Below the pieces are notes generated by a model. It had not been told where the DNA came from. It saw only the letters and a list, made by a program, of their open reading frames with translations, and searched no databases. From positions 1 through 43,702 of the forward strand of contig WHSL01000022.1 in the NCBI GenBank assembly GCA_009380095.1: a stretch of 43,702 nt of DNA, given 5' to 3'. A program made the translations under genes and the position numbers. This document shows, piece after piece, positions 22,096-35,728 of the stretch; position 1 is the stretch's first letter; each line of letters starts with the position of its first letter. Source of the DNA: Streptosporangiales bacterium (GTDB taxonomy: Bacteria; Actinomycetota; Actinomycetes; Streptosporangiales; Streptosporangiaceae).

Positions 22096-23631
22096 TCAGG
22101 GCGTGAGGGCCCCGGCGGAGTCCGTGGTACGGGGCGTCTTGACCCAGGCGCGAGCGGAGACCACGGGGAAGACGCCGAGCCGGTCCCCATCGGTGAGGAC
22201 CCGCGCCGCGTACACGGGCGCGGACCCCGGCTGCACCTCGACCAGCACCGCGAAGTGCCCGCCGGCCGGCCCCGGCCCCGCGACCTTGACGGTGCGCGTC
22301 TTCTCCATCGGCAGCTCGACGGTCTGCGCCCGCCCGGGCCCGTTCGGCCCGATCGGGGTGAGCTTGACCGTGGCGGGCCCGGTCGGCGCGGTCATCACCA
22401 CCCGCGTGGCCTGCTTCTTACCGGACCGGTTGTCGGCGATCACTCCGGCCGGCTGCACCGGATCGGCGGCCGCGGGGTAGGCGGTGTCACCCCCGTCGTG
22501 GCCCCCCTCGGTGGCGATCAACCCGGCCGTGATCGGCACATCGGCGGTGAGCTCCACCGTGGCGGCACGGCCGGACAGCCCCGAGGCCAAATCCACGGTC
22601 GCGGTGGAGGCCCCCGCCACGTCCACCTCGCCCCGCCCGTCGGGGATGTACGCGCCGTCCTCGGTGATCACGCGCACGTGCACGGAGGCCAGTTCGTCGC
22701 TCGGCGTGGCCACCACCAGCTTGCGGTCACCACGTCCCGGCGGCAGGCCGGGCAGCACCACCCGGCGGGCCGGCTGCGCGGCGGGCGGCACCCAGTCCGT
22801 GCCCCGGTCGCCCTCGCGGACCAGCAACGACGGTGCCACCCGGCCGGTGCTGGTACGCACCCGCAACGCGACGGCACCGGCGAGCTTGCTGACGGTCTTG
22901 AGCGGCAGCACCTGCCGGCTGTGCGGCTCCAGCCGCAGGCCGAGGGTGCTGGTGTCGGCGAGCCGCCCCTCCGGGGTGAGCACGTCCACGTCCACCACGG
23001 CGGGGCCGTCGTCCACGTTGAGCAGGTACAGGTCGAGCGCCTCGGCCTCCGCGCCGCCGGGCGCGGCGAACCAGAAGTCGAGGCCGGGCTCGGGGCAGCG
23101 CTCCGCGGCGATGTAGTCGTCGTGCACGGTGGTCTGCTCGGCCTGCAGGCCGCCGGCCATCGTGCCCGAGGAGTGCAGCACGAGCGGCTGCGAGCGCCCC
23201 TTGCTCTCCTGGTACCAGGGCACGCCGGTGCTGTGCAGCGACGCGGACGGGGCGTTGGCGGGGGCGTTCAGCTCGCGGATGTCCGCGCGGCCCTCGCCGG
23301 TGCGGTCGGCGGTGGACGGAGTGATCGCGGACACCGTGGTGGATATGCCCGGGACCTTGGAGGGGGCCGGGCAGGCGTGCATCGCCGACTCGACCGGGAG
23401 CCGTTCCGGGACCACCGGCGGCGCGGCGGCCGCGGCGCCGGGCCGGGTCGCGGCGGCGACGCCGTACAGGCCCGCGACGGCGGCGAGGACCACGACGAGG
23501 ATCGCTATCCGGTGGCGGAGCAGGGTGCGCACGTCCGGCATGTCGGGAAGGTCGGGGCGCTTGAGCTCAGGGCGCTTGAGCTCGGGACGTTTGAATTCCG
23601 GGCGCTTGAACTCGGGGCGCTTGAACTTCAT
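22096..23631 (-). CDS. DUF5719 family secreted/anchored protein with Lys-rich repeats
   Basis: This 511-residue protein begins with about five copies of the pentapeptide (E/F)KRP(E) (FKRPEFKRPELKRPE), a strongly basic cytoplasmic head. A membrane segment follows (IAILVVVLAAVAGLYGVAAA, about residues 48-67). The remaining 440 residues are predicted outside, with Gly/Ala/Val-rich beta-sandwich texture and repeated VxVDVLTPEG-like strands, as in DUF5719. The function is unknown. The ATG overlaps the stop of the upstream glycosyltransferase (ATGA), so the two are translated as a coupled pair and probably work together at the membrane. This pairing next to whiB is recurrent in actinobacteria, from recall of the locus. 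Confidence 0.85.
   Translation of the reverse strand: MKFKRPEFKRPEFKRPELKRPELKRPDLPDMPDVRTLLRHRIAILVVVLAAVAGLYGVAAATRPGAAAAAPPVVPERLPVESAMHACPAPSKVPGISTTVSAITPSTADRTGEGRADIRELNAPANAPSASLHSTGVPWYQESKGRSQPLVLHSSGTMAGGLQAEQTTVHDDYIAAERCPEPGLDFWFAAPGGAEAEALDLYLLNVDDGPAVVDVDVLTPEGRLADTSTLGLRLEPHSRQVLPLKTVSKLAGAVALRVRTSTGRVAPSLLVREGDRGTDWVPPAAQPARRVVLPGLPPGRGDRKLVVATPSDELASVHVRVITEDGAYIPDGRGEVDVAGASTATVDLASGLSGRAATVELTADVPITAGLIATEGGHDGGDTAYPAAADPVQPAGVIADNRSGKKQATRVVMTAPTGPATVKLTPIGPNGPGRAQTVELPMEKTRTVKVAGPGPAGGHFAVLVEVQPGSAPVYAARVLTDGDRLGVFPVVSARAWVKTPRTTDSAGALTP
23552..23627 (-). repeat. 15-bp tandem repeats at the DUF5719 N-terminus
   Basis: Five imperfect 15-bp units (plus-strand form cttgaactcggggcg) encode the basic (E)FKRP/LKRP pentapeptides immediately after the start codon. 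Confidence 0.85.
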
Positions 23632-27151: not shown

Positions 27152-27418
27152 CTAGAGGCCGGCGGCCGCCTTCTTCAGCCGGCGGCGTTCACGCTCCGAC
27201 AGCCCGCCCCAGATACCGAAGCGTTCGTCGTGTTCGAGCGCGTACTCCAGGCACTCCACGCGCACCTCGCAGGTCCGGCAGACCTTCTTGGCCTCGCGCG
27301 TGGAGCCGCCCTTCTCAGGAAAGAACGCCTCCGGATCGGTCTGCGCGCACAGGGCGCGCTCCTGCCAGCCCAGATCCTCGTCTGTGCCGTGCGCCAGCGG
27401 GATGATCTCCTCGCTCAA
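27152..27418 (-). CDS. whiB: WhiB-class Fe-S transcription factor
   Basis: This 88-residue WhiB-like protein binds a [4Fe-4S] cluster through four cysteines (Cys24, Cys47, Cys50, Cys56; C-x22-C-x2-C-x5-C). The G(I/V)WGG turn lies at 68-72 and the basic tail ERERRRLKKAA follows. The sequence around LGWQERALCAQTDPEAFFPE is nearly that of Streptomyces WhiB, the sporulation-septation factor that works with WhiA, and mycobacterial WhiB2/WhmD. The gene lies between the glycosyltransferase block and fbiA in the same place as those orthologues. The start is a TTG (27418) with a perfect AGGAGGT 5 nt upstream; the frame continues upstream without support. A promoter lies about 75 bp upstream. Confidence 0.95.
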   Translation of the reverse strand: MSEEIIPLAHGTDEDLGWQERALCAQTDPEAFFPEKGGSTREAKKVCRTCEVRVECLEYALEHDERFGIWGGLSERERRRLKKAAAGL

Positions 27419-27423
27419 AGCGC

Positions 27424-27430
27424 ACCTCCT
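27424..27430 (-). promoter_or_regulatory. whiB: Shine-Dalgarno sequence deciding the whiB TTG start
   Basis: AGGAGGT lies 5 nt before TTG at 27418, a near-perfect match to the anti-Shine-Dalgarno of 16S rRNA. It fixes a rare TTG start and suggests that start-codon weakness is offset by strong ribosome binding. Confidence 0.8.
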
Positions 27431-27491
27431 ATGCCCCCTCGAAACCCCTCCCACGTAGTACCCCCCGGGAGGGCTGAACCACACCAATGAA

Positions 27492-27521
27492 ATTACACGC
27501 GCGTGTCTTGCTTCGCGTCAA
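27492..27521 (-). promoter_or_regulatory. whiB: whiB promoter
   Basis: TTGACG (27516-27521) and TGTAAT (27492-27497), both read on the minus strand, are separated by 18 bp, close to the vegetative sigma consensus. A leader of about 70 nt would follow. A second AT-rich stretch with GATATC lies further upstream and could hold another promoter or operator. Confidence 0.6.
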
Positions 27522-27605: not shown

Positions 27606-30428
27606 TCAGCGGCGGTCGTCGCCCGCGTCCCAGTCGCGCCCGGCCGGAGAAGAAGCCGACCGATCCTGGCCATCGGCCCCGGGAACCGCCCGGCCCGCGG
27701 CCGGGTCGTAGCCTCCGTACGGCTCGGCAGCGTAGTCGCTGTGGTCGTCGTAGGCCCCCACGACGGGAAACTGTGCGGTGCTCGCCGGGTTAGCGGATGG
27801 ATCGTCCCGATTGGGCTCCGGTGAGGGGTCCGCGAAGAACCGATCGAACACCGTCCCCCTCCCGCCGGCCGGGGCCTGCGGGCCTCCGGCCGAGACCTGC
27901 GGGCCTCCGGCCGGGCCCTGCGGGCCGCCCGTCCCGTCGTCGGCCACTCCGCCACCGACGACCGGAAAGTCCTCCGTGGCCCGGCCGTCAGCCGGCACGA
28001 AGTCATCCACAGGCCCACCGGCTCCCGCCGGCAACGCCCCCGGGGACGCCGAATCAGCCGACGGGAGCGCACGCGCCGGGTCCGGCTCGTAGGCGTCATC
28101 GGGGCGTCCGGTGCCGAAAGCGTTGAACCCCGAGGCGGGCTCACCCTCCGGAGACCGCATGCCCTGCCCCTCCGGTGACGGCGCGCCCGGGCCCTCTGGA
28201 GACGGCGCGCCCGGGCCCCCCTGTGGCGGCGCCCCTGGGCTCTCCGGTGGTGGCGCGGCCGGGAACGGGTTCGTGGGCACGACCACCCGGTCCGGCGAGT
28301 CGGGATACTCCGGGTACGGCGAGCCGTAGCTCATCCCCTCCCCGGGCGCCCCGAACCGATCCCCGGCCCCAGGCGGGCCCCCCGCCCCGACGTCCGCGAA
28401 CGGCGTCCCCGCCCCGGCGCTCCCGCCGAACGGCGCGCTCTGATCCCCGAACCCCGCCGACGCGTGCGGATCGCCATACGACGATGCCGACGGGTCGCCG
28501 TACGACGACGTGGACAGGTCCGCGGGTGGCCGCGAGGGCGTGGAGGGGTCGCCATAAGACGGCGTGTACGCGGCGGCTGGAGATGGTCCTGTTGGCGACG
28601 GCGTGGACGGGCCGCCAGGCGGATCCGCCGGCTGCGAGGACGCGTTGCCGAACATGTCCGTCGGGAGCGGCGGGACGCCGGTGGACTCGGCCGCCGGCTC
28701 GGCCATGGTGTACCAGCCGAACTCGACCGCCTGCCGAGCCGCCTCCTCGCTCGAGAAGGCCTGACCCTGCGGATTCCCAAAACCGCCCTGACCCGGCGAA
28801 TCACCGAATCCTCCCTGCTCCGAGCCGAAGCCGCCTTGCCCCGGCGTGAAGCCGTCCTGCCCGGAACCGAAGCCGCTCTGCCCGGAACCGAAGCCGCCCT
28901 GCCCCGAAGCGAAGCCGCCCTGCCCGGAGCCGAAGTCGCCCTGTCCCGAGGGCGGCGTACCACCGAACCCGCCATGGTCCGCGGGTGCCGGACTACCGAA
29001 GCCGCCATGGTCCGAGGGGAACGCCTGACCGGCGGGCGAGTAGGTGGAGGGCGGCGGCTCGGGCTGTTCGTACACCCCGTGCGCAGGCGGGTGGACCGGC
29101 GGGAACGCGGGGTTGCCGCCGGTCGGCGCGTACCCCGCGCCATAGGGACCGGCGGGGCCGGCTTGCCCGGCTTGCCCGGCTTGCCCGTCGGAAGCATCCG
29201 TGTAAGGAGCCGCCTCGCGCCGACCGAGCCCCGGCTCGCGCGGACCGAACCCCGGAACGATGCCGCTCGCACCACCCCCGGACGCACCCCCGGACCCCGG
29301 CTCGGCCGGCCCACCGGCCGCACTTCCAGTGCCTGCGAATGCACCTTGGTCGAAGTCGCTACCCGGCGCACCACGGGCTGGGTCACCTGGGAGGCCCGGC
29401 GGAAGCCCGCCCGGCCCACCGGAATCGGCGGCACCCGCGCCGGTGAAAGCGCCCTGGGAGGGATTACCGGCCGAGACACCCTGCGCGGGGTCGCCCGGCC
29501 CGCTCGAGGAGAAGGGGTCACCCGGCGTGCTCGAAGAGAAGGGGCCGCCCGGCGCGCTCTGCCCGGGAGCGTCCGGAGCCCCGGGGGAACCGGGACCCGC
29601 ACTGCCGGAGCCGAGGGACGCGCCTCCTACGCCGCTTGAGCCGAGCGCCCCGGGACCCGCACCGCCGGGACCCATTTGGCCCGGCCCGACGTCAACACCT
29701 GCACCGCCCGGACCCACCTGGCCGGGCCCGACGTCAACACCTGCACCGCCCGGACCCACCTGGCCGGGCCCGACGTCAACACCTGCACCGCCCGAACCCA
29801 CCTGGCCGGGCCCGACGTCAACACCTGCACCGCCCGAACCCACCTGGCCGGGCCCCACACCGAGACCCGCACCGCCGGGGCCTGCACCGCCAGGGCCGGG
29901 GGCGGGGCCGGGGTGGGAGGGCGGGCCGCCGTAGCCGGCGAAGCCGCCCTGGGGGGCGCCTTGAGACCCCGTGGGCGCGGGGGTGGCCGGGCGCAGCGCC
30001 ACAACCTCGGGTGAGCTGTGCACGCCGAGGGTGTAGAGCCCGGCGAGCGCGAGCAGCGCGAGTTGGGCGAGGCCGAGCAGCACCGTCATCGACTTGTCCA
30101 GCGCGCCGAGCTCGGAGAACAGCGACGCGAAGACGGCGAGCACGCCGAACAGCGCGGAACCGCCCTGGGCGACGAGCGCGAGCCGTACGAACAGCCGCGT
30201 CTGCGGCAACAGCGGGCCGCCCTTCGTCGCCAGCAGTACGGCGGCGACCGGCAGCGCCGTGGCCGCCGGCCCGATCAGCGCTCCGCCGCGGGCGACCGCC
30301 GCCCCCCACTCGGCGAAGTGACCGATCGCGATGATGCGCAGCAGCGCGTACAGCACGCCGAGCAGGGAGAGCCCGAGGAGGACCCAGACGGCGGGCCCGC
30401 GCAGCCGGTTCGCGTCCTGATGATTCAC
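27606..30428 (-). CDS. Four-TM membrane protein with a long repeat-rich disordered tail
   Basis: This 940-residue protein is not recognised as a named family. Residues 1-145 contain four membrane helices (VWVLLGLSLLGVLYALL; GPAATALPVAAVLLAT; FVRLALVAQGGSALFGVLAVF; LLGLAQLALLALAGLYTLGV). The other 795 residues are low-complexity and rich in Gly, Pro, Ser, Gln and Asp. They include four identical-type 14-residue repeats GVDVGPGQVGPGGA, a block of GFGSGQG heptads and many PGGPG-like segments, resembling an intrinsically disordered, condensate- or scaffold-like tail on the cytoplasmic side. GGGGGAG precedes the GTG by 6-7 nt. It lies between whiB and fbiA and is divergent from fbiA. No catalytic motif is visible. 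A short TM protein with a variable tail is the more general description of homologues I would expect. Confidence 0.7.
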   Translation of the reverse strand: MNHQDANRLRGPAVWVLLGLSLLGVLYALLRIIAIGHFAEWGAAVARGGALIGPAATALPVAAVLLATKGGPLLPQTRLFVRLALVAQGGSALFGVLAVFASLFSELGALDKSMTVLLGLAQLALLALAGLYTLGVHSSPEVVALRPATPAPTGSQGAPQGGFAGYGGPPSHPGPAPGPGGAGPGGAGLGVGPGQVGSGGAGVDVGPGQVGSGGAGVDVGPGQVGPGGAGVDVGPGQVGPGGAGVDVGPGQMGPGGAGPGALGSSGVGGASLGSGSAGPGSPGAPDAPGQSAPGGPFSSSTPGDPFSSSGPGDPAQGVSAGNPSQGAFTGAGAADSGGPGGLPPGLPGDPARGAPGSDFDQGAFAGTGSAAGGPAEPGSGGASGGGASGIVPGFGPREPGLGRREAAPYTDASDGQAGQAGQAGPAGPYGAGYAPTGGNPAFPPVHPPAHGVYEQPEPPPSTYSPAGQAFPSDHGGFGSPAPADHGGFGGTPPSGQGDFGSGQGGFASGQGGFGSGQSGFGSGQDGFTPGQGGFGSEQGGFGDSPGQGGFGNPQGQAFSSEEAARQAVEFGWYTMAEPAAESTGVPPLPTDMFGNASSQPADPPGGPSTPSPTGPSPAAAYTPSYGDPSTPSRPPADLSTSSYGDPSASSYGDPHASAGFGDQSAPFGGSAGAGTPFADVGAGGPPGAGDRFGAPGEGMSYGSPYPEYPDSPDRVVVPTNPFPAAPPPESPGAPPQGGPGAPSPEGPGAPSPEGQGMRSPEGEPASGFNAFGTGRPDDAYEPDPARALPSADSASPGALPAGAGGPVDDFVPADGRATEDFPVVGGGVADDGTGGPQGPAGGPQVSAGGPQAPAGGRGTVFDRFFADPSPEPNRDDPSANPASTAQFPVVGAYDDHSDYAAEPYGGYDPAAGRAVPGADGQDRSASSPAGRDWDAGDDRR
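28795..28960 (-). repeat. 21-bp repeats encoding GFGSGQG heptads
   Basis: About seven imperfect units encode FGSGQGG-type heptapeptides in the tail of the 940-residue protein. Third-base differences between units indicate older expansion than in the 42-bp array. Confidence 0.75.
29688..29855 (-). repeat. Four 42-bp tandem repeats
   Basis: Units at 29688-29729, 29730-29771, 29772-29813 and 29814-29855 are nearly identical (one or two differences, e.g. cggac versus cgaac) and encode the 14-residue unit GVDVGPGQVG(P/S)GGA. The low divergence implies recent or ongoing expansion and possible copy-number variation among strains. Confidence 0.9.
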
Positions 30429-30724: not shown

Positions 30725-31672
30725 ATGCGACTAGTCGTTCCGGCCGGCGGCATCGGTGGCGCCCGGTTCCTGCGCGGCCTGCGGGCCGACGTGCCCGACG
30801 CCGAGGTGACGGTGATCGGCAACACCGGCGACGACATCTCGCTGTTCGGCCTGCGCGTCTGCCCCGACCTCGACACGGTGATGTACACGCTGGGCGGCGG
30901 CATCGCCGAAGACCGCGGCTGGGGCCGCGCCGACGAGACGTTCACGGTCCGCGAGGAGCTCGCGGCGTACGAGGTGGCCCCCCTCTGGTTCACCCTCGGC
31001 GACCGCGACTTCGCCACCCACATCGTGCGCAGCCAGATGCTCGCGGCGGGGTATCCGCTGTCCGCGGTGACCGAGGCGCTGTGCGACCGCTGGCGCCCGG
31101 GGGTCCGGCTGCTGCCGATGAGCGACGACCGCGTCGAGACGCACGTGGTGATCGAAGACGAGCAGGGCCGCCGCGCCGTGCACTTCCAAGAGTGGTGGGT
31201 GCGGCTGCACGCGGAGGTGCCCGCCGAGCAGATCATCGCGGTGGGCGCGGAGGAGGCCAGCCCCGCGCCCGGCGTGCTGGAGGCGATCGAGGCGGCCGAC
31301 GCGGTGCTGCTGCCGCCGTCCAACCCGGTGGTCAGCGTGGGCACCATCCTCCAGGTGCCGGGCCTGCGCGAGGCCATCGCCGGCAAGACCGTGGTGGGAG
31401 TCTCGCCGATCATCGGCGACGCCCCGGTGCGCGGCATGGCCGACGCCTGCCTGACCGCGATCGGCGTCGAGACGAGCGCCCGCGCGGTGGCCGAGCACTA
31501 CGGGCCTGAGCTGCTCGACGGCTGGCTCGTCGACGACGCCGACGCGGCAGTCGCCACGGACGGCGTTCCCGGCATCGAGGTGCGCGCCCGCCCGCTCTAC
31601 ATGCGTGACACCGAGTCCGCCGCCGCCATCGCCAAGGCCACCCTCGACCTCGCCCTGGAGCTGCGGTCATGA
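30725..31672 (+). CDS. fbiA: F420 biosynthesis phospho-(enol)pyruvyl/lactyl transferase
   Basis: This 315-residue CofD/FbiA enzyme transfers the phospholactate-type side chain from its guanosine-activated form to the deazaflavin Fo. In mycobacteria the donor derives from phosphoenolpyruvate, giving dehydro-F420-0. The N-terminal [12 protein letters not shown], the [25 protein letters not shown] block, the [12 protein letters not shown] segment and the C-terminal [16 protein letters not shown] are family signatures. Length is normal. The start ATG follows CAGACT by 6 nt. Its stop overlaps the fbiB start (ATGA). The partner guanylyltransferase FbiD/CofC is not in this window. Confidence 0.96.
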
Positions 31673-33154: not shown

Positions 33155-35728
33155 ATGGCCACTCCGACCGGACCGTCCGACAACGCCCTGCGCCGCTCGC
33201 TGGCCCGCGCCCGGGACGGCAAGCAACTGGATCAGGCCGAGGCCACCACCCTGCTGTACGCCCGCGGCGAGCACCTCGACGCCCTCCTGGAACACGCCGG
33301 CCGCGTCCGGGACGCGGGCCTCACCGCGGCCGGCCGCCCCGGCGTCATCACCTACAGCCGCAAGGTCTTCATCCCGCTCACCCGGCTCTGCCGGGACCGC
33401 TGCGGCTACTGCACCTTCGCCACGGTGCCGGGCCGGCTGCCCGCCCCGTACCTCACCCCCGACGAGGTGCTGGACATCGCCCGCCGCGGCGCCGAGCTGG
33501 GCTGCAAGGAGGCCCTGTTCACGCTCGGCGACCGCCCGGAGGATCGGTGGAGCCAGGCCCGCGAGTGGCTTGACGCGCACGGCTTCGACGACACGCTGTC
33601 CTACGTGCGCGCGATGGCCGTACGGGTCCTGGAAGAGACCGGCCTTCTCCCGCACCTCAACCCGGGCGTGCTGACCTGGCGCGACCTGCAGCGGCTCAAG
33701 CCCGTCGCCCCGTCCATGGGGATGATGCTGGAGACGACCGCGGACCGGCTGTTCAGCGAGCGCGGCGGCCCGCACTTCGGCTCGCCGGACAAGGACCCGG
33801 CGGTGCGGCTGAGGGTCCTTGAGGACGCGGGCCGCAGCAGCGTGCCGTTCACCACCGGCATCCTCATCGGCATCGGCGAGACCCCGGAGGAGCGCGCCGA
33901 CTCGATCTTCGCCATCCGCAAGGTCGCGCGGGAGTACGGCGGCGTCCAAGAGGTCATCGTGCAGAACTTCCGCGCCAAGCCGGACACCAAGATGCGCGCC
34001 ATGCCCGACGCCGACCTGCACGAGCTCGCCGCCACGATCGCGGTGGCCCGGCTGGTGCTCGGCCCCCGGGTCCGCATCCAGGCACCGCCCAACCTGATCG
34101 GCGACGAGTACGCGATGATCCTCGCCGCCGGCATCGACGACTGGGGCGGGGTCAGCCCGCTGACGCCCGACCACGTCAACCCGGAGCGGCCCTGGCCGCA
34201 GATCGACGAGCTGGCCGAGCGCACCGCGCGCGACAGGTTCACGCTGCGCGAGCGGCTCACGATCTACCCGGAGTACGTACGGGCCGGCGAGCCCTGGCTC
34301 GACCCCCGGCTGAACGCGCACGTCGCGGCCCTCACCGACCCGGAGACCGGACTCGCCCGCGAGGACGCGATCCCCCGCGGCCTCCCCTGGCAGGAGCCGG
34401 ACGGCGGCTGGGCCGCCCACGACGGACAGGGCCGTACCGACCTGCACGTCGGCATCGACACCGACGGCCGCACGGCGGACCGCCGCGACGACTTCGACGT
34501 CGTGTACGGCGACTGGGACGAGCTGCGCGGAAGGATCAGCACCGCCCCCGCCCGGTTCGACGCCGACGTACGGGACGCGCTGCGCAGCGCCGAGCGCGAC
34601 CCGGCCGGCCTCTCCGACGACGAGGCGCTGTCGCTGCTGCACGCGGACGGCTCCGAGCTGGACGCGCTGGCGGAGCTGGCGGACGGGCTGCGGCGGGACG
34701 TGGCCGGGGACGACGTCACGTACGTGGTGACCCGGAACATCAACTTCACGAACGTCTGCTACACCGGCTGCCGGTTCTGCGCGTTCGCGCAGCGCCGCAC
34801 CGACGCGGACGCGTACTCGCTGTCGCTCGCCCAGGTCGGCGACCGGGTCGACGAGGCGTGGGAGGCCGGCGCCACCGAGGTCTGCATGCAGGGCGGCATC
34901 CACCCCGACCTGCCCGGCGACGCCTACTTCGAGCTGGCCGCCGAGGTGAAGCGCCGCCGGCCGGAGATCCACCTGCACGCGTTCAGCCCGATGGAGGTCG
35001 TCAACGGCGCGTCGCGCTGCGACATGTCCATCGAGGAGTGGCTGATCCGGGCGAAGGAGGCGGGCGTCGACTCGCTGCCCGGCACGGCCGCGGAGATCCT
35101 CGACGACGACGTGCGCTGGGTCCTCACCAAGGGCAAGCTGCCCACCTCGGCGTGGATCGAGGTGGTGACCACCGCGCACCGGATCGGCCTGCCGACGACC
35201 TCCACGATGATGTACGGGCACGTGGACACGCCCGCCCACTGGGTCGCGCACCTGAAGCTGCTGGCCAGGCTGCAGCGCGAGTCGGGTGGGTTCAGCGAGT
35301 TCGTGCTGCTGCCGTTCGTGCACACCAACGCGCCGATCTATCTGGCCGGGCTGGCCCGGCCCGGGCCCACGCCGCAGCAGAACCGGGCCGTGCACGCGCT
35401 GGCCCGGCTGCTGCTGCACGGGGCGATCGGCAACATCCAGTGCTCCTGGGTGAAGCTCGGTGAGGACCTCTGCCGGGACGTGCTGCGCGGCGGGGTCAAC
35501 GACATCGGCGGCACGCTGATGGAGGAGACGATCAGCCGGATGGCGGGGTCGGAGCAGGGGTCGTACAAGACGATCAGTGACATGGCGGCGCTCGTCGCGC
35601 CGACCGGCCGGCCGCTGCGGCAGCGCGGCACGCTGTACGGCGCGGTGAGCGAGGAGCGTCGGTCCGTGGCGGCGGCGAGCGACGGGGTGGCGATGGCGGT
35701 ACGGCGCCCCACACTACCGCTGGTCTGA
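33155..35728 (+). CDS. fbiC: FO synthase (7,8-didemethyl-8-hydroxy-5-deazariboflavin synthase)
   Basis: This 857-residue fused CofG-CofH radical SAM enzyme makes the deazaflavin Fo from tyrosine and a flavin precursor. Both cluster-binding motifs are intact: CRDRCGYC (Cys79, Cys83, Cys86) in the CofG half and CYTGCRFC (Cys535, Cys539, Cys542) in the CofH half. Family segments such as [40 protein letters not shown] and [12 protein letters not shown] are present. Length is typical of actinobacterial FbiC. GGTGAGG precedes the ATG. It lies 202 bp after fbiB; in mycobacteria and streptomycetes fbiC is far away, so this contiguity is uncommon. Four 28-bp repeats begin at its stop. Confidence 0.97.

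Follow-up and report, generated by a model that had tools for sequence, protein, structure and literature searches.

An undescribed family of four-helix membrane proteins with long low-complexity tails, encoded beside whiB in two actinobacterial families

Results

The locus and its protein

The subject of this study is a coding sequence (CDS) for a protein of 940 residues (27606..30428, minus strand) in a 43,702-nucleotide stretch of DNA from a Streptosporangiales bacterium (contig WHSL01000022.1 of assembly GCA_009380095.1), which we call the window. It begins with GTG, is preceded by a Shine-Dalgarno-like stretch, GGGGGGAG, about 7-14 nt 5' of that start, and has orthologues at the same site in other genomes. 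An earlier reading of the window, made from the letters and their translations (the sequence-only reading), had placed the gene between whiB and fbiA, and both neighbours were confirmed by profile matches. On its 3' side lies the open reading frame (ORF) that holds whiB (27152..27487, minus strand, TTG start as listed; WhiB PF02467, E 1.4e-27), and on the other side lies the divergent fbiA, or cofD (30725..31672, plus strand; FbiA/CofD TIGR01819, E 2.4e-122). The CDS is 118 bp from the whiB ORF as listed and 296 bp from fbiA, beyond which come fbiB and a long ORF (33155-35728) that we take to be FbiC.

The protein consists of four transmembrane helices followed by a tail of 795 residues, as had been predicted. 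In the anchor, residues 1-145 (29994..30428, minus strand), the stretch from residue 9 to residue 134 contains the four hydrophobic helices, and AlphaFold2 run on this domain with 55 aligned sequences gave four long helices with a mean predicted local distance difference test score (pLDDT) of 84.8 and a predicted template modelling score (pTM) of 0.71. Helix 1 starts with RLRGPAVW, where the family consensus is RLREPAAW. The tail, residues 146-940 (27609..29993, minus strand), is predicted to be cytosolic from the charge pattern. It is of low complexity (G 25%, P 17%, A 14% and S 10%, counted over 798 residues), with only 5% Q compared to 8-37% in the orthologues compared, and by its composition would be disordered. 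The GC content of the CDS by codon position is 0.78/0.68/0.82 overall. Two things support the reading frame of the tail: orthologues at this site have tails that are also long and open, and an in-frame peptide, AARQAVEFGWY, follows a pattern that recurs in some other proteins of the family.

No Pfam or NCBIfam model matches the window protein, nor any of six full-length relatives. When 26 members were compared with Pfam, 27 families were touched, each by at most two members and at best with E 4.3e-4, and 55 members compared with NCBIfam touched three families, one member each, at best with E 0.0012. Foldseek against the PDB returned 205 matches at E <=10 and none at <=0.001, sequence searches of PDB chains found no relative, and full-text literature searches, judged by titles and abstracts, found no paper describing the family. 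The window anchor matches the family profile (A1) with E 1.6e-34, the window sequence being part of the profile seed. The protein is the longest-tailed member found of an undescribed four-helix RLREPAAW family.

Four nearly identical 42-bp units (29688-29855) and GFGSGQG heptads had already been noticed in the tail. The 42-bp array was confirmed in this draft assembly and is slightly longer than that, with 5.3 copies at 29655..29876 (minus strand; 93% match, score 353) of the 14-residue unit GGAGVDVGPGQVG[SP], and the heptads form a 21-bp array of 7 copies at 28803..28949 (minus strand; 78% match). Among 100 codon-shuffled tails used as a control, 17 contained any array scoring at least 50, and the top score was 71 compared to the 353 observed. 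In-frame tandem arrays scoring at least 80 are present in 60 of 67 coding sequences, a count that has no shuffled control of its own, and repeat-rich tails are ordinary within it.

Orthologues and the variation of their tails

A search with the single sequence found the gene in 26 of 60 genomes, the window's own included. With a profile, 28 of 246 genomes of the class matched: 22 from the same family as the window (its own included), with one match each, two from another family (f39) with strong matches, and four with weak ones. These four lie outside both families (E 3e-5 to 9e-4) and were taken as chance; two of the stretches show, by eye, transporter-like ORFs. Fifteen genomes missed by the single-sequence search were searched again, and the gene was found in 5 more, 2 of these being among the 12 that belong to the window's family. 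In a FbiA+FbiB tree of 121 sequences (support values were not inspected), the genomes of this family that stayed negative cluster together, and their nearest branch, L048, has the gene.

A scan of genus-assigned genomes gave 69 loci, from Nonomuraea, Streptosporangium, Microtetraspora, Planomonospora, Herbidospora, Acrocarpospora, Sphaerisporangium, Actinomadura and others. Three were left out of the 66-locus set used below, whose loci we take to be Streptosporangiaceae in the wide GTDB sense. Two of the three (L227 and L228) went to the second family described in the next section, and the other (L229) has the gene, whiB and a glycosyltransferase (GT) gene in order, with no fbiA match on its short contig. 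The order whiB, family gene, fbiA is found in 65 of the 66 loci, the remaining one being cut by a contig end. A further set of 43 proteins was obtained by dropping four of 47 rows (L043 and L051, open at a contig end, and L152 and L158, with N runs). It has genomes in common with the 66-locus set, e.g. G009:C1 and L161, and the two are not independent.

The sequence-only reading had named the lack of a long tail in close relatives as a result that would tell against it; what we found are tails of 133-795 residues in 108 counted proteins from overlapping collections. The window tail is the longest of these, followed by that of L214 with 791 residues. The Actinomadura proteins, which come from near the window in the FbiA+FbiB tree, are far shorter (296-361 residues). 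Copy-number variation, which had also been proposed, is seen between species in the sense that length and repeats differ: proteins are 580-921 residues long in Nonomuraea, 432-523 in Herbidospora and 752-936 in Sphaerisporangium. Within genera the gap fraction of the alignment is 18-49% in the middle of the tail versus 0-5% in the membrane domain, and 2-31% in the last 80 residues.

Short peptides persist in these tails. WY occurs within the last 15 residues of 33 of the 43 proteins (shuffled mean 0.47, maximum 3), DP[TVP]AIY in 17 (shuffled mean 0.00) and AYQQA in 18 (shuffled mean 0.85). In the 66-locus set, WY or [DN]P.AIY stands near the C-terminal end in 63, and one of the three proteins with neither ending is cut by a contig end. 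The window protein ends in DWDAGDDRR (27609..27635, minus strand). Its AARQAVEFGWY peptide, residues 563-573 (28710..28742, minus strand), follows a pattern present in 12 of the 42 other proteins of the 43-protein set and in 0 of 66 genus-assigned proteins, and gave no match in 20000 shuffles of the window tail. Shuffles of this kind keep composition and not relatedness, and they show that the motifs are not chance rather than how often they arose. The idea of phosphorylation sites was also considered, and the contexts around Thr in the tails gave no clear signal.

A second family with the gene next to whiB

In the loci of Propioniciclava and of a Propionibacteriaceae metagenome-assembled genome (MAG), a RLREPAAW four-helix protein is encoded directly 5' of the WhiB gene, 134 and 147 bp away, and the stretches fetched for the two had no fbiA match. 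When the class was searched with the second-family protein, 12 of 394 genomes matched, and 10 of these belong to the window's family. One more hit led to the family that we treat as the second one, in which 38 of 77 genomes have the protein; 30 of these had loci, all of which were examined. A WhiB match follows the gene on the same strand in 30 of 30, 65-423 bp after its stop. Thirty of the 39 genomes with no match to the protein were then searched for WhiB, and 28 gave a locus. An upstream same-strand ORF with either a joint-profile match (10) or the tail peptide of this family (11) was seen in 15 of the 28, 6 having both, while the remaining 13 had neither upstream. The second family is most likely Propionibacteriaceae, given 60-61% identity to the MAG locus.

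Aligning the two families with hhalign gave a probability of 98.8% (E 1.3e-16) over 135 columns. The reversed control reached 5.7%, and block-shuffled controls reached 25-93% over only 16-33 columns around the RLREPAAW block. A GT match was found in 48 of 61 second-family stretches and an fbiA match in 14 of them (2 of the 30 first-read loci and 12 of the 28 further ones), a count limited by the length of the stretches, most of which extend no more than about 1.5 kb on either side. Since these 14 loci have the order of the first family, both families probably inherited the order GT, whiB, gene, fbiA from their ancestor. Within the second family whiB is the steadier partner, as it adjoins the gene in 30 of 30 loci and fbiA is seen beyond it in only 2 of 30.

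The second family has its own tail peptide, of the type AxGxxWxTAxxAAxG, in 21 of 30 proteins (0 in shuffles) and 5' of whiB in 11 of the 28 further loci; none of the first-family sets contain it. Three second-family proteins (L314, L315 and L319) have Q/P-rich tails, two of them with GNGWYPV or GNWYPV near the end, which recall the WY ending of the first family. In L305, L308 and L312 we saw multi-helix ORFs 5' of whiB that have no profile match and yet contain an AxGxxWxxAxxAAxG-type peptide, as if the tail peptide were more conserved there than the anchor.

Two other lineages have related genes. In the two f39 genomes the homologue is beside fbiA, and a fbiC match lies between it and whiB, which is about 5-6 kb away. 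At these f39 loci (L123 and L124), the frame of fbiA contains an in-frame TGA in G135, and in G235 it is split into two pieces, of which one contains a TGA. In a sister family (f3; L120 and L121) a four-helix gene of RLREP type with a short tail has as neighbours genes that by eye resemble those of phosphoenolpyruvate (PEP) carboxykinase and uppS, and the whiB and fbiA of this family are 137-192 bp apart with no family gene between them (L118 and L119).

Promoter-like sites and other features of the neighbourhood

The whiB gene has a promoter-like site, TTGACG-N18-TGTAAT (27492..27521, minus strand), with an identical 18-nt spacer in 61 of 65 loci of the genus-assigned set. Because only 4 bp separate the end of this site from the TTG listed as the start of whiB (27487), that start is probably too far upstream, and because whiB has a site of its own, the 940-residue gene and whiB are probably started separately, although they may also share a transcript. 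Upstream of the family gene, L161-L226 contain a conserved block of about 45 nt, GGTT..TGGGWC..CCGACACCAAAGTC..ATGTGC.AAACT, which is probably a promoter of unassigned sigma type. A strict match to its core, ATGTGS.AARCT, lies 32-48 nt upstream of the start in 52 of 66 loci, and close variants are visible elsewhere. The block is not recognisable in the window.

Two other candidates in the upstream region were rejected. A dyad, CCGAC-N6-GTCGG, seemed to covary in the manner of an RNA element, but RNAalifold predicted 0 pairs over 52 sequences, with the pairing broken in many rows, and an Rfam search gave 0 matches in 9 sources. The pentamer GACAC, which we take to be the WhiA box, was at first counted 110 times versus 42 in shuffles, but the stretch counted extended into fbiA. 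Restricted to the intergenic part, the count is 55 (shuffled mean 29), spread over 36 of 66 loci, and since this excess seems to come from the one conserved block we make no claim of a WhiA box. Farther away, beyond the GT gene, a DUF5719 protein (22096-23631, minus strand) starts with a repeated five-residue unit, KFKRPEFKRPEFKRPELKRPELKRPDL.

Discussion

Our goal in this section is to ask what such a protein might do. Computation gives us an anchor with its low-complexity tail, peptides conserved in tails that vary in length, and a gene order with whiB that recurs in two families. Around these we tentatively favour an adaptor that is membrane-anchored, cytosolic and disordered and that would serve septation or envelope growth, a reading that draws on analogy and that we offer as possible rather than probable. 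The four helices would hold the protein in the plasma membrane with both of its ends inside the cell. The long disordered tail would then extend into the cytosol and present short conserved peptides that are spaced by fast-changing repeats. Through these peptides the protein may bring partners from the cytosol to the membrane, septation or envelope growth being the most likely purpose, in a programme that would also use WhiB. The repeats would be spacers, expanded in the window genome, and their number would matter little. The orientation is suggested by the charge pattern only: the mean number of positive charges in 55 sequences is 2.80 at the N-terminus and 2.56 in loop 2, compared to 0.42 in loop 3. 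The membrane-tethered disordered scaffold of the sequence-only reading holds as far as the anchor and the low-complexity tail are concerned, whereas the placement of the tail inside the cell rests on those charges.

The closest analogue among known systems is Rv0954 of M. tuberculosis (PF17270, DUF5336), with which the family has in common an architecture of four helices and then a tail. Rv0954 is reported to combine four predicted helices with a cytosolic half rich in Pro and Gln, to localise at mid-cell and to interact with LamA, PbpA and PknH; a possible role as a divisome scaffold has been proposed for it, and deleting it left shape without visible change (PMC8093794). The 19 Rv0954 relatives that we sampled have 108-178 residues after the domain, compared to the 795-residue tail of the window protein, and in the one genome read a gene of the Rv0954 type lies beside genes that are purine-like by eye, not beside whiB. 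GlpR of Corynebacterium glutamicum (Cgl0885) is described as the integral membrane receptor of the gephyrin-like Glp, with cytosolic disordered regions, and as binding a division protein (PMC10522489). Topology sets it apart, as it has three helices and two oppositely charged disordered regions where the window protein has four helices and one tail. ZipA has a single anchor and an FtsZ-binding domain, while Pfam gave no domain for the window protein. This membrane-bound division protein of Escherichia coli also has a Pro/Gln-rich cytosolic region, as cited in the Rv0954 report (PMC8093794). It is by analogy with Rv0954 and GlpR that a role in septation or wall growth would be assigned.

Several observations weigh against the adaptor. 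Membership in the Rv0954 family was tried and rejected: hhalign gave a probability of 0.4-0.5%, the 0.4% being over 25 columns, versus the 98.8% over 135 columns for the second family. DUF5336 has no match in the window's genome and is not among the 25 Pfam families listed for members; it matches in 51 of 246 genomes of the class, and in none of the 19 same-family genomes listed. The positive charges in loop 1 (1.05) and in the stretch after helix 4 (1.04) are alike, which makes the predicted topology tentative, and the window protein itself has 0 positive charges in its short loop 2. Codon bias is weak at residues 201-400 of the window CDS (GC content at third positions 0.69-0.72). The identity of aligned columns in the middle of the tail (51-81%) is about that of the membrane domain (61-84%), the difference between the two being one of gaps, and in Nonomuraea gaps still amount to 31% in the last 80 residues. 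Neither the WY ending nor any of the AYQQA, FGHPQ and DPTAIY peptides occurs in the window protein, and each of the two families has conserved peptides of its own. As for the link to whiB, that gene has its own conserved promoter-like site, and 10 of the 12 re-searched genomes of the window's family gave no profile match to the family gene. In 9 of these 10, whiB adjoins fbiA, 213-421 bp away, and the family gene is missing from between the two (no match to fbiA was found in the tenth), which means that whiB works there without it. Finally, the second-family loci in which fbiA was seen (14 of 61) place it divergent beyond whiB, the two matches being 593-1380 bp apart, and the order may simply be inherited.

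These last points bring us to the alternative that survives best, one that we find doubtful without setting it aside. The gene could be a passive or loosely linked neighbour in a GT-whiB-gene-fbiA block, with an envelope job unrelated to WhiB, a tail that is mostly drifting and repeats that have no function. The block is common to both families, tail length and repeats change fast, the gene is missing at the site in nine members of the window's family, and the f3 copy is located elsewhere. On the other hand, a merely drifting tail fits poorly with short peptides that persist in tails of varying length, and a passive position fits poorly with a gene that stays with whiB in the 28 of 30 loci where no fbiA was seen on the fetched stretch. 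Since the block includes fbiA in many loci, shared descent explains part of the association with whiB. The whiB link proposed by the sequence-only reading is therefore retained in part: the gene does stay with whiB in two families, and the inherited block accounts for some of this. Propionibacteriaceae are not known as spore formers. If the second family does belong to them, the link to whiB is not specific to sporulation.

A more direct relationship is that of a membrane partner of WhiB, in which the anchor would sense the state of the membrane or envelope and a tail peptide would bind WhiB, WhiA or a sigma factor, holding or releasing the regulator. We consider this unlikely, although it would explain why whiB is the steadiest neighbour across both families, on the same strand and downstream, while in the second family fbiA is seen in only 2 of 30 loci, and why five second-family loci (L302, L305, L308, L312 and L316) have the tail peptide with no match to the anchor profile. 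Against it, whiB is retained elsewhere with no such gene: in 30 genomes from 27 families (f19 being sampled three times and f38 twice, with upstream stretches of 750-1500 bp) a family-type gene was found 5' of whiB only in G037, with a window-like order, and in G435, which belongs to the second family. The other 28 show none, though a strongly diverged gene would escape such a survey. Moreover, the f39 lineage keeps the gene with fbiA and not with whiB, and no peptide is common to the two families. Faulty assembly or a misread frame is a very improbable source of the long frame or the repeat array, since the draft state of the genome (413 contigs), the near identity of the 42-bp copies and the N runs inside the gene in three orthologues (L152, L158 and L200) are outweighed by orthologues that occupy this site and have long open tails too, some of them in single-contig genomes, and by a conserved peptide at residues 563-573 that is in frame past both the 42-bp array and the heptads.

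What is new here is an undescribed family that matched no Pfam or NCBIfam model in our searches and lies beside whiB in two distant families. If the adaptor is the right reading, WY[GR]x[DE]xR, DPTAIY, AAxxAxxYGWY and AxGxxWxTAxxAAxG are the candidate recruiting peptides. The family also shows how fast the length of a tail can change while short peptides persist in it. WhiB-type proteins control septation in actinobacteria, and we know of no membrane partner of WhiB. A bolder proposal, which we think improbable, is that the family is a dedicated membrane partner of WhiB, whose peptides would bind WhiB or its complex with WhiA or a sigma factor, whose four-helix sensor would time the septation regulator and whose repeats would tune the reach of the tail. 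If that were true, such timing would operate in Streptosporangiaceae, which form spores, and also in the second family, which probably does not.

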